5,435 nt of DNA from Candidatus Zhuqueibacterota bacterium (GTDB taxonomy: Bacteria; SM23-31): NCBI GenBank assembly GCA_022562855.1, contig JADFON010000162.1, positions 1 to 5,435 on the forward strand, written 5' to 3'. Position 1 is the stretch's first letter. Every line of letters begins with the position of its first letter. Both the position numbers and the translations under genes were made by a program. Below the pieces are notes generated by a model. That model ran no database searches, was not told the DNA's origin, and was given only the letters and a program-made list of their open reading frames with translations. Positions 488-5,435 of the stretch are shown one piece after another.

Positions 488-2035
488 TTAACGAGAGCGC
501 AAATAGTTTCTGAATTTTTCTTTTAGACTGATATTCTTGTCCCAGTCCCAGTAGGTTTTCTGTTGGAAATTTATCCAGTTTGTCTTGTAACTGATAAATG
601 CGCCCAGGTAGAGATTCTGCGCATTTCGGTAATCATCGACAGCACGTGAGAGTTCTTGTGCGGTAATATCATTAGTGCGGAAACTTTCTAAGGATTGGTC
701 GTAGAATTCTTTTGCGAGTGCTATATTTTGTTCCTGTCTTATGACTCTTTGTTGTGACGAGATATAATCTCGCGCGGCTTTTCTGATGTCGTTCTCACGC
801 GACAGCAGGTCATTTTCATATTTAAGTACGGCGTTTTCATAATTTAATTTTGCAGCTTCAATCTCAAATTCTTTCCGACCGTTGTCCCACAATGGAAAAC
901 TGATTTCCAGTTCAATACTGCGGGTCACGTTATAATCGCTGAACATATCGCTGAATTTTTCGTTCAGAACAGGGTTTGTGCTGTTTTCAAATCCATACGT
1001 TGCTCTCAGTTCTGCGCTGAATTCTTTGAGCCTGTGTCCCGCGTTGGATCCGGCGCTTTCTATGTCATCTTTTCTGAACTCAACATCGATTTGGGAGCTT
1101 CGCAGCGAGGGTCTATCCTTCAATCCGATAGCGACTGCTTTCTCAACATCGATTTCTATTTCTTTTATGGAAAGATCCGGGACTAATTCAATAGGCTGGT
1201 CAAAACTCAGACCAAATTTTTGTTTGAATTCAAGTTCCTTTTTGAAGAGTTCCACCTTTTTGCTCAGTAGTTCACTTCGGTTTAATAAATAGTCAACCTC
1301 AAGCCTGATTACGTCGATGGAGTCTATCCTGCCCTCAAGAAACTGTTGACTCGCTTCCTGGAATGCAGAATAGTTGATATCAACGATTAACGAATCGATC
1401 TTGAACTCTTCGGTTTTCCTGTACAGGTCGTAAAACAACCTGTTGAGAGACTGGTAATGTGTCAATATGCTGGAGATACTATTTGCTTCCGTTTTTTCAA
1501 ATTCGAGATCCGCTCTCCAGATCTCCTTTTTCTTTTGGTTTCTTGTAAACAGGGGCTGTTCAAGTTCCATGAATAGTCTATTCTTATATGAGCGGTTCTT
1601 CCCGATCTGATCGAGGGATTCCAGATTCGATTTTATCGAGATCGTTCCATTTGTAATAAAGGGGAAAACAATCGGTTGAGTAATGTCCCAGTTTGCCTTA
1701 AATTGTGTTCTATCTGTTTCCTTTGTAATAAAACTCTCGGTAGAAGAATTATAAATCCTCGTAATTGCCTGGTTCAAACTGGGAAGGTCGACATTAAGGG
1801 TGGAAAACGACCGCAAGCCTGCTTGATCTGCCTGCTTGTTCAAGGAGTTTTTTTGATAGTCCATGCGCCGCTTGTAAATCTCATAGCTGACATCAAAAGC
1901 GTATTCAGCAGCCTGTTCAAACGTAAAACTGATCTTTTGCTGGGCAAAAACTTGGAGAACCTGAGTAATGCAAAAAATGGACACCAGCGCCAGACTAAGA
2001 AGTTGTTTAATAAGCTTATCGGTTTGGTTCTTCAT
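488..2035 (-). CDS. TolC-family outer membrane efflux protein C (third gene of the operon)
   Basis: Predicted outer-membrane channel subunit of 515 aa; TolC-family proteins form trimeric ducts that span the outer membrane and periplasm and dock onto RND, ABC or MFS pumps through an adaptor. Residues 1-31 are a signal peptide, cleaved at VFA31|Q32. OEP repeat 1 covers about 36-275: helix start FTFEQAAEYA, LRS at 74-76, barrel strands with ITQP (118-121) and LEQPLF (158-163), then a long coiled-coil helix turning at LEGRID (233-238). Repeat 2 covers about 295-490, with FPLWDNGRK (380-388), the family's PxxDxGR-type box, and a second tip around RTNDIT (453-458). The C-terminal box TYWDWDKNIS (494-503) is shared with its two neighbours. 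The only cysteine is in the signal peptide. The ATG is 19 bp from the stop of gene B, with no Shine-Dalgarno sequence; translational coupling is possible. The gene ends with tandem stops TAA TAG. Family assignment is firm; substrate and partner pump are unknown. Confidence 0.93.
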   Translation of the reverse strand: MKNQTDKLIKQLLSLALVSIFCITQVLQVFAQQKISFTFEQAAEYAFDVSYEIYKRRMDYQKNSLNKQADQAGLRSFSTLNVDLPSLNQAITRIYNSSTESFITKETDRTQFKANWDITQPIVFPFITNGTISIKSNLESLDQIGKNRSYKNRLFMELEQPLFTRNQKKKEIWRADLEFEKTEANSISSILTHYQSLNRLFYDLYRKTEEFKIDSLIVDINYSAFQEASQQFLEGRIDSIDVIRLEVDYLLNRSELLSKKVELFKKELEFKQKFGLSFDQPIELVPDLSIKEIEIDVEKAVAIGLKDRPSLRSSQIDVEFRKDDIESAGSNAGHRLKEFSAELRATYGFENSTNPVLNEKFSDMFSDYNVTRSIELEISFPLWDNGRKEFEIEAAKLNYENAVLKYENDLLSRENDIRKAARDYISSQQRVIRQEQNIALAKEFYDQSLESFRTNDITAQELSRAVDDYRNAQNLYLGAFISYKTNWINFQQKTYWDWDKNISLKEKFRNYLRSR

Positions 2036-2054
2036 TGTATCGATTCAATAAAAT

Positions 2055-3632
2055 TTAGTTATTGTTATTATTATTGTTAGTTGACTCGAGGATGTTGTTT
2101 ATTTCTTCCTCGGTTACAAAACTGATATCGTTCAGAAAATCCCACATCGTCTTGCTATTCAGGTCGACAACTGCTTTTTGATATTCGACATATGCGTTCA
2201 GCAGGAAGTTGTCGGATGCAATAAACCGGTCCTTGGCTAACCTGAGATCTTGCGACGTTACTTCGCCGTTATTGAACTGGATAAGAGTCAGTTCGTATAT
2301 CCGCTGTGCATCTATGCGAGATCTTCTGGTCAGTGAAAGCCGTTCTAATGTCTCGTTTAAAGTAAAATAAGTGTCGGTAATTTCTTTGCGGATATTACGG
2401 CTCGTGTTGATCTGGGAGTTCTTGGTCCTTTCCAGTGAAACGCTTTTTTCCTGGAGTCTTGCAGAATTTCTTCCCCAGTCAAGGATAGGCATATTGAATT
2501 TTAGCATAATACTTCTGCTGCGGTCATAGTTACGAAATACATCTCCTAACGGGTCGTAGAAATTCCTGTTAAACAATTCTCCGTTGATGCTGTTGTCGAA
2601 TCCGAGCGTAATTTTCAGTTCACCAGTCAATCTTCCTTCTGCTTTTATTTCCTCGATATCGAGTTCCTGCTGCCTTAAGTCGAGTGCAAACCTCCGGATC
2701 TCGACCCGGTTTTCCAACCCTTTTTGTATTGCCTCATCAAGGGACACGTTCACCGGCAGTACACTGAGATTGGCTATTGCATTTATTTCCTGATCTTGAT
2801 TATCATCCTGAAACCCGATGGATTGTTTGAAGGTAGCTTCACGGTTCTGACGGTCGGACCGCAGTTTCAGTAGATCGCTTTGTATATTCGCAAGGTCGAC
2901 TTCGAGATTTAACAACTCTCTTTCATCGAGATTACCTTCTTGAGCCCTTGCCAGAGCGCTGTTGTACGCATTTTCATACTGTTGTGCAAGTTCTCTCTTA
3001 AGCTCGATCTGTTTCTGAAACCGGAACAAATCATAAAAACTTCCCACAAGGAACGATATAGTTCCCGATTTACGTTGCGAATATGAATACCGCGTTCGCG
3101 CCAGATCCATTTCCGATTTTTCAACATTGTTTTTCAGCCGGTTTGGTTGAAGAATCGGTTGTTCGAATTCAAGAAATAACCTGCCGAAATACCTGTCGGA
3201 TTTTCTGTATCTATCGTGGGTTTCGGATAATCCCGGGGTAACTTGACCGGTGTGGGATAAGCTTCCGTTTAATGAAATGTTGCCGCAGCAAAAGCTAATG
3301 GGTTGGCTTATACGTGTTTCGATTTCAAACTTCATCTGCTGGGAGTTTATGAACTGGTATGATTCAGTCACAAAATTATATTGCTCATTTATGGATGCGT
3401 CAAACGCAGGTATTGTTACATCTATCCTGGCGTTCGATCTTAGACCCGCCTTCGAAGCCTGAAGCCGGAAATAACTCGATCTGAAACTATTCTCCTGCTG
3501 TTTAAAGGTGTACCCCTGACGCAATGCCATCTCTATACTTTCGTCATAGGTAAGGTCTATTATCGTCTGTCCGTATAGAAACGGGCAGGAGAGGAGTACA
3601 CAAATAAGGATATATGTTATCTTAAGTTTCAT
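2055..3632 (-). CDS. TolC-family outer membrane efflux protein B (second gene of the operon)
   Basis: Predicted 525-aa trimeric outer-membrane channel subunit. The signal peptide is residues 1-21, with likely cleavage at LYG21|Q22. LLSC16 also fits a loose lipobox, so lipidation at C16 is a less likely alternative. Repeat 1 has the helix start LTYDESIEMAL, KAGLRS (61-66), ISQPI (108-112), a turn with Cys115-Cys116, FEQPIL (156-161), and a helical hairpin turning at QEGNLD (231-236). Repeat 2 starts at VSLDEAIQKGL (296-306). It carries MPILDWGRN (381-389) and a tip at NNGEVT (454-459). The shared C-terminal box is TMWDFLNDIS (495-504), and the protein ends in seven asparagines (519-525). Cys115 and Cys116 are the only cysteines of the mature protein. 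It lies 24 bp after gene A and 19 bp before gene C on the same strand, hence probably co-transcribed. No Shine-Dalgarno sequence precedes its ATG (AATCTAAAACATG). Length and two-repeat layout are normal for the family; specificity cannot be told. Confidence 0.93.
   Translation of the reverse strand: MKLKITYILICVLLSCPFLYGQTIIDLTYDESIEMALRQGYTFKQQENSFRSSYFRLQASKAGLRSNARIDVTIPAFDASINEQYNFVTESYQFINSQQMKFEIETRISQPISFCCGNISLNGSLSHTGQVTPGLSETHDRYRKSDRYFGRLFLEFEQPILQPNRLKNNVEKSEMDLARTRYSYSQRKSGTISFLVGSFYDLFRFQKQIELKRELAQQYENAYNSALARAQEGNLDERELLNLEVDLANIQSDLLKLRSDRQNREATFKQSIGFQDDNQDQEINAIANLSVLPVNVSLDEAIQKGLENRVEIRRFALDLRQQELDIEEIKAEGRLTGELKITLGFDNSINGELFNRNFYDPLGDVFRNYDRSRSIMLKFNMPILDWGRNSARLQEKSVSLERTKNSQINTSRNIRKEITDTYFTLNETLERLSLTRRSRIDAQRIYELTLIQFNNGEVTSQDLRLAKDRFIASDNFLLNAYVEYQKAVVDLNSKTMWDFLNDISFVTEEEINNILESTNNNNNNN
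2058..2078 (-). repeat. (AAY)7 trinucleotide run encoding a C-terminal poly-Asn tail
   Basis: Seven consecutive asparagine codons (AAC AAT AAT AAT AAC AAT AAC) lie directly before the TAA stop of gene B. They extend the protein past the end of its alignable TolC sequence; neither neighbouring paralogue has such a tail. A short AAT/AAC run is prone to replication slippage in steps of three, which would change the number of Asn residues without touching the fold. Confidence 0.85.
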
Positions 3633-3656
3633 GTTTTAGATTATAGTTGATTCATC

Positions 3657-5261
3657 CTATTTTATTATTGAAGCAATAATCGCCTCTAATTCCTCACGTA
3701 TGCTGATATTTTTTTCAAAATCCCATTGTGTCTGGTTTGCTAACTGAATCAATGCAACTTTATGATCGACGAGCAGTTGCAAATATTCTACTTGCGCCTG
3801 ATAGTTCTTTTTTACAGAGAGGATAAGATCCTCGGAAGTAATAGTTTCTTCGATGAATTGCTGGCGCGCGATCAGCATTACTTGTTCAGCCAGGTTCTTT
3901 GCTCTGGTCAACAGGTCTATTCTTTCCTGCATCAGGTTTATTGTGAAAATATGCCCTGTTATCTGGCGTTGTGTATCGAAAATGTCGTTTTTCATTTGCC
4001 TCTTTTTTGTATCCAGGTTGATTTTTGCCGCCTCGAGAAACATATCGTTTCTGCCCCAATCCCAGACGGGTATTTTAAGACCAAGCTTCAGACTTCTCGA
4101 TTGTGAAAATTCATCAAAATAAAGCCTGATCGATTGGTCGGAATTGTTCAACCCGTAGGAACCCGATATGTCACCGGTAATCCTGCCCGTCGACGCCACT
4201 TCATCTATCCGCAAACTGTCCCGAAGAATATCGATATTGAATCCCCTGATTCCAGTGTTGTTCGCGATTCCTTCGGATAGAGCTTTCTTTTCATCGACAA
4301 CAACCGGGTTGTAATCAATAGTATCGATAACCCTGATATTTTCGTCAACGTCTAATCCAAGAAACTGGTTTAGTCCGCGGGTTGACCGGTCTTTTCTCGC
4401 GGCAGATGAAAACAGGGCGTTTTCGCTGTTTGCGAATTCCACACCTATCTGAAGGTTTTCTCTCTCCGACAAAGTGCCGGCATTAAGCCGCTGCTGTGCA
4501 ATGTTTTTTAGATCTTCCCAGATTTCAAAGAATCGGGAGTCAAATTCTAATAGTTTGGTATGTTCGAAAAGTTGGTAATAATTTTGCGAAAGACTTCCGC
4601 CGCCTCTACCGAATCCAGGATTACCGCCACCCCTGCGACCTTCACGGTTGCCTCTAAATTCTCTCATCATAAATTCGCTCATACCGCCAAAGTTTGATCT
4701 TCTGTAGTACGAACGACCATAAATCAGGCTGAGGCGGCGCTGAAGATAGTCGATTTTAGCCTTGTCGAGATTTAACTCCGCCCTGTAAATATCGCGCTGA
4801 AGTTTATTCGGAACAAATATAGGCTGGCTGAAGCTTATAAATAAATTGGTGGTGTACTCAGGATTGTCTCCGGACTGCTTAAAGCGGTCGAGATTAATGT
4901 TTGCCGATATTTTTCCATTTGAAGGGAGAGGTTGGGTTATAGACAATCTGCCGTCATAAGAAATAGTATTAACGGTGAAATTGTTGAAGAGCTGGGTTTC
5001 CTGGTCAAATTTTTCCTCCAGTTCATTTTTTATTTCCGGGGCGGTCATTATCAGGTCGACACGTGACCGCAAACTTGCGCGTGTGGCAATAAAACTGTAA
5101 TTCTTTACACGAAGATCGAGTTCTGTGTCCTGGACAGAAAAACTGTTCCGAATGGCAATTGCTGCAGCTTCTTGAAATGTCAACAAGCGTGATTCTTGCG
5201 CGGCAAGGGAAACCGGCGACAGGATCAATAAAACTGCGAATATTTTGTAAAACTTTGCCAT
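3657..5261 (-). CDS. TolC-family outer membrane efflux protein A with Gly/Arg-rich insertion (first gene of the operon)
   Basis: Predicted outer-membrane channel subunit. I start it at the ATG at 5261 (534 aa), not at the in-frame TTG one codon upstream: AAGGA lies 6 bases before the ATG but only 3 before the TTG. The signal peptide is residues 1-20, with likely cleavage at LAA20|Q21. Repeat 1: LTFQEAAAIAI, ASLRS (62-66), SITQP (107-111), SFSQPIF (143-149), a long helix interrupted by a Gly/Arg-rich stretch at about 187-226, then a hairpin tip at NAGTLSE (260-266). Repeat 2: KIPVWDWGRN (396-405), the typical family box, and a tip at IEETIT (470-475). C-terminal box TQWDFEKNIS (511-520). The protein has no cysteine. 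It differs from B and C mainly by the insertion, and the gene ends with TAG. It heads the probable A-B-C operon and is the only one of the three with a good Shine-Dalgarno sequence. Substrate and partner pump are unknown. Confidence 0.93.
   Translation of the reverse strand: MAKFYKIFAVLLILSPVSLAAQESRLLTFQEAAAIAIRNSFSVQDTELDLRVKNYSFIATRASLRSRVDLIMTAPEIKNELEEKFDQETQLFNNFTVNTISYDGRLSITQPLPSNGKISANINLDRFKQSGDNPEYTTNLFISFSQPIFVPNKLQRDIYRAELNLDKAKIDYLQRRLSLIYGRSYYRRSNFGGMSEFMMREFRGNREGRRGGGNPGFGRGGGSLSQNYYQLFEHTKLLEFDSRFFEIWEDLKNIAQQRLNAGTLSERENLQIGVEFANSENALFSSAARKDRSTRGLNQFLGLDVDENIRVIDTIDYNPVVVDEKKALSEGIANNTGIRGFNIDILRDSLRIDEVASTGRITGDISGSYGLNNSDQSIRLYFDEFSQSRSLKLGLKIPVWDWGRNDMFLEAAKINLDTKKRQMKNDIFDTQRQITGHIFTINLMQERIDLLTRAKNLAEQVMLIARQQFIEETITSEDLILSVKKNYQAQVEYLQLLVDHKVALIQLANQTQWDFEKNISIREELEAIIASIIK
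4584..4703 (-). other. Gly/Arg-rich low-complexity insertion in TolC-like protein A
   Basis: Residues 187-226 of protein A contain 12 Gly and 8 Arg in 40 positions, with short motifs such as GNREGRRGGGN and GFGRGGGS, plus three Met. Alignment by eye between the barrel exit (QPIF / QPIL / QPLF) and the conserved YYQLF / FYDLF / FYDLY motif shows about 41 residues that B and C lack. The reading frame stays open and the family signature resumes at once, so this is an in-frame insertion and not a frameshift. It falls in the long helix, about 35 residues before the periplasmic tip. Confidence 0.75.
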
Positions 5262-5266
5262 CAAAG

Positions 5267-5393: not shown

Positions 5394-5435
5394 TAACCGT
5401 GCTTACAATGAATACAAATCACAACTATAATCATT

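Follow-up and report, generated by a model that had tools for sequence, protein, structure and literature searches.

A conserved array of three TolC-family channel genes without a linked pump: a candidate detached exit-duct module for a two-adaptor MacB-type exporter

Three complete genes of the TolC/OEP outer-membrane factor family, denoted A, B and C, lie in tandem on the minus strand of the window, the 5,435-nucleotide stretch of DNA analysed here. The same A-B-C order occurs in all three genomes of the family that were examined, which represent three genera, and at none of these loci do the channel genes adjoin an adaptor and a MacB permease, as they would in a MacAB-type exporter operon. 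The three proteins are best read as a set of channel subunits detached from their pump, most likely serving an unlinked exporter built of two adaptors and a MacB-type permease; we put the probability of this reading at roughly one half.

The window is an entire contig (G000:C168) of a fragmented assembly of 491 contigs, 80% complete. The preliminary description had recognized three complete TolC-family genes with gaps of 24 bp (A-B) and 19 bp (B-C), and this is confirmed by the open reading frames and by the scores against PF02321 (OEP), which are 61.7 bits for A, 115 for B and 99.5 for C, all above the curated cut-off of 22 bits. The start of A is placed at the ATG at 5261, the mechanical first start being a TTG at 5264. 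The leader of A features a promoter-like site (5364-5336) and a terminator-like hairpin (5298-5283), both by consensus match only; terminator-like hairpins number 7 in the window and 5.2 in shuffled sequences, i.e. close to the shuffled count. The small secreted protein gene downstream of C matched no Pfam family, and has a distant homologue 1.2 kb after C in one of the relatives, G002 (32% over 68 aa).

Table 1. Coordinates of the genes and protein features in the window
Feature	Position	Strand	Basis and remarks
Gene A, TolC/OEP family, 534 aa	3657..5261	-	ORF; PF02321; orthologues G001:C7 (57%), G002:C209 (45-46%)
Gene B, TolC/OEP family, 525 aa	2055..3632	-	ORF; PF02321; two orthologues, 52% and 47%
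Gene C, TolC/OEP family, 515 aa	488..2035	-	ORF; PF02321; two orthologues, 59% and 46%
Leader of A, non-coding, ends at contig end	5262..5435	-	without ORF of at least 60 aa
Small secreted protein gene, start only, cut by contig end	2..388	-	~100 bp after C; unit membership uncertain
First periplasmic tip of B, EGNLDERELL	2910..2939	-	alignment with operon-linked relatives
First-tip equivalents	A ~4484-4449; C ~1336-1307	-	same alignment
Second periplasmic tip of B, NGEVTSQDLRLA	2235..2270	-	alignment with operon-linked relatives
Second-tip equivalents	A ~3851-3825; C ~676-647	-	same alignment
Arg/Gly-rich insertion, ~40 aa, in descending periplasmic helix of A	4596..4715	-	alignments of A/B/C and orthologues
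Asn-rich C-terminal tail of B	2058..2078	-	in all three B orthologues

All three proteins stay below the thresholds of the two narrower NCBIfam channel families against which they were scored. Against the type I secretion TolC subfamily (TIGR01844) they reach only 27 to 60 bits, with a cut-off of 225, and against the NodT-type efflux subunits (TIGR01845) 18.8 to 29 bits, with a cut-off of 210. A sequence search of the PDB returned no real relative at E values up to 1, so that family and fold searches were needed; a scan of genome contigs with B found a single distant relative only.

Since only about 170 bp precede A in this whole-contig window, whether a pump is missing could be judged only from relatives. 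The sequence beyond position 5435, where the preliminary description would have looked for a pump or adaptor, is out of reach as the contig stops there; its statement that neither lies between or after the three genes is borne out on the longer contigs of the two other genera, G001:C7 (20 kb) and G002:C209 (35 kb). The former has no adaptor or pump match at all. The latter has no adaptor match and no pump adjoining the triplet; its MacB-like genes stand several kb off and are either long permeases of orphan type or part of a Lol-like set. In both relatives the triplet genes are separated by short gaps or almost none. The upstream flanks are not shared, A being preceded by an amino-acid permease in G001 but by a methyltransferase in G002, and the downstream flank is partly shared, in that only the small secreted gene has a nearby homologue, in G002. 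The recurrence of the triplet is thus more than chance, the order being the same in all three genomes while the flanks are little shared; together with the lack of a linked pump, the differing flanks indicate that the triplet is a unit of its own.

The three genes are also clearly distinct from each other. Orthologues are 45-59% identical and paralogues 25-29%; mean identity within the A, B and C groups is 0.50, 0.49 and 0.51, respectively, and 0.26 between groups. In maximum-likelihood trees each orthologue group is supported at 100/99 or better, and the well-supported groups, with identity within them far above that between them, point to an old, maintained unit rather than a recent duplication. 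A 28-row tree weakly groups A, B and C as one clade (80/70), while a 30-row tree leaves this clade without resolution and the clade test is compatible with it (p-AU 0.52). That the genes are merely tandem duplicates of redundant function, persisting by inertia, is improbable: they do share fold and family, and one copy of A carries an in-frame stop, but the groups are ancient and all constrained, with 165-175 invariant columns per orthologue group and 27 common to all nine sequences.

A wide search of 386 genomes with B revealed no further tandem triplet among the best three candidates per genome. The preliminary description had reasoned that a lack of conservation of the triplet in relatives, or a pairing of each gene with its own pump in other genomes, would speak against its proposal; the order is the same in both other genera, and the genomes examined gave no instance of an A, B or C orthologue standing by itself or next to a pump. 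The conserved order in three genera, the near-equal divergence of the groups and the lack of a linked pump make it likely that A, B and C function jointly. That much of the earlier interpretation, which saw in the three either a mixed trimer or a set of alternative exit ducts, holds; conservation and comparable divergence would fit a mixed trimer and three specialised homotrimers alike.

All three proteins appear to retain the two periplasmic helical hairpins that, with barrel strands, mark the family. Structure models built from the three window proteins alone are of low confidence (pLDDT 52 and 46), and were left out of any claim about interfaces; in the models of C and A the hairpins are predicted confidently, with most of the remaining parts below pLDDT 50. 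The best match to the low-confidence C model in a fold search of the PDB is E. coli TolC, which resembles the triplet proteins in family and in predicted helical-hairpin layout; however, it is a single-gene homotrimer serving many pumps, with 12-14% identity in the fold alignment. The tips of A, B and C are unlike each other and unlike those of operon-linked relatives, which are of the GLIPEVEALQ type; inside each orthologue group they are recognisably conserved. Divergence between the paralogues peaks in the long helices (between-group identity ~0.20) and is lowest in the barrel segments (0.32-0.37). The Arg/Gly-rich insertion, which interrupts a predicted helix in the low-confidence model of A, is found in A orthologues only and varies in length; among the three paralogues, the Asn-rich tail is confined to B.

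The same genomes encode the converse arrangement, a pump without a channel. In G001 (C178) and G002 (C263) an operon of adaptor 1, adaptor 2 and a MacB permease carries no channel gene and adjoins dtd-, apt- and acyP-like genes, names that were assigned from the gene sequences. In the genome of the window, the first adaptor lies in the same neighbourhood (G000:C72), where the contig ends; the permease of this exporter was not found in the assembly (~80% complete), in which the exporter is represented by that one truncated gene. The MacB permeases of G001 and G002 are 72% identical to each other and 64% to that of G004:C40, in which a single channel gene of the triplet's subfamily follows the permease. 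A single OEP-family gene closes the same operon in G149:C217, G050:C8, G195 and G083, and the operon is again channel-less in G003, G011, G159 and G298. Most other OEP genes of G000 adjoin an adaptor (C157, C67, C65, C97 and C228). All the genomes compared are fragmented assemblies.

Several further features of these loci were observed. The adaptor-adaptor-MacB permease operons at L084, L085, L086, L087, L040, L048 and L134 contain no ABC ATPase gene, so the ATPase must be encoded elsewhere. Extra adaptor pairs are present in G001 (L092:6103-8988 on C72 and L094:6429-9398 on C277), close to contig ends; no channel or MacB permease gene adjoins them, and a join between the two contigs was sought and not found. 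The 5.3 Mb assembly of G002 shows a very large expansion of MacB/FtsX-type permeases: it has at least 150 such genes, many of them roughly 860-880 aa long, and an initial look had given 363-391 candidates (examples are L037:248-2851 and L038:7825-10443). Finally, a tandem TolC-like pair in G004 (L039:2896-11580, contig C80) is divergent to a gene for a 1793-aa gingipain-type C25 peptidase that carries a T9SS sorting tail; at a comparable locus in G005 (L043) the contig, C129, breaks off within the first channel gene.

The partnership proposed here is suggested above all by two gaps that complement each other, the channel genes lacking a pump and the pump lacking a channel. A, B and C would be a co-transcribed set of three specialised channel subunits that insert in the outer membrane, in an arrangement discussed below. 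Their periplasmic helical tips would dock on the adaptors of the exporter, for which the operon of two HlyD-type adaptors and a MacB-type permease is the likeliest candidate, letting the substrate out; other ABC exporters that lack a channel may perhaps offer their adaptors to the tips in the same way. The case for this partnership is circumstantial. The tree, whose backbone lacks resolution, does not place A, B or C beside the channels of adaptor-adaptor-MacB operons, which counts against it, as do the showing of the exporter in G000 as a single truncated gene and the fragmented state of all the assemblies. Nor is the partner unique, since the triplet genomes contain other channel-less exporters: adaptor plus ATPase (G001:C118 and G002:C118) and MacB/FtsX permeases. 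Compared with two-adaptor exporters of MacAB-TolC type, such as that of G149:C217 (adaptor, adaptor, MacB permease, OEP), the channel family is shared and the triplet genomes have a permease and adaptors of the same kind, but the channel of the triplet is detached from the pump genes, threefold and diverged.

It is quite conceivable, if a little short of an even chance, that A, B and C form three separate homotrimers, each serving another channel-less exporter or substrate and held in one operon for joint regulation. Several such exporters are available (the two-adaptor MacB operon, adaptor plus ATPase, and the adaptor pairs on G001:C72 and C277), and tips that differ among the paralogues yet are kept inside each group would suit different partners. 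A precedent for more than one TolC paralogue per exporter is found in Caulobacter, in which two TolC-like proteins, RsaFa and RsaFb, serve one type I exporter as alternative channels; unlike the triplet, their genes are not in tandem, rsaFb being unlinked, and they are described as alternatives and not as a mixed trimer (PMC3034196). Against separate homotrimers, an orthologue on its own or next to a pump was seen in none of the genomes examined, and there is no one-to-one match of the genes to three pumps.

A stronger form of the detached-module explanation, and compatible with it, is that A, B and C together make one obligate 1:1:1 heterotrimer on an asymmetric ring of two adaptor types. We regard this as rather unlikely. 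The gene count of three matches the trimeric fold, a match that is suggestive; A, B and C are never apart within the family, and their groups have diverged to a comparable extent. The differences between paralogues are largest in the periplasmic helices, and the insertion of A and the tail of B are each restricted to one subunit; the divergence of the helices, however, would be no less expected of homotrimers that each meet a different adaptor. Mixed components are known in tripartite pumps, with paralogues acting together in MdtBC, an RND trimer, and in the adaptors TriA/TriB (PMC4338810, PMC8277102), but in those cases the mixing concerns the inner-membrane transporter or the adaptor and not the outer-membrane channel. 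A review speaks of outer-membrane factors as trimers and calls TolC a homotrimer, and no published TolC heterotrimer was found in open-licence papers. A mild point against an obligate trimer comes from A of G001 (L036:10039-11322 and 9652-9939, G001:C7), whose otherwise conserved frame is interrupted by a single in-frame TAA within the final quarter of the gene. The stop may stem from faulty assembly or be a recent loss, and in the second case it would disrupt an obligate trimer. A mixed trimer of A, B and C is therefore possible on the sequence evidence, and it is doubtful that they represent the first obligate mixed trimer of three paralogues in the TolC family, docking on an unlinked two-adaptor exporter.

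Channels of the TolC family are regarded as homotrimers, and an ancient, conserved, pump-free operon of three diverged channel genes is a natural test for asymmetry; asymmetric outer-membrane factors would parallel the asymmetry of some RND transporters and adaptors. The triplet also offers a plausible partner for the channel-less MacB-type exporters that several of the lineages examined carry.
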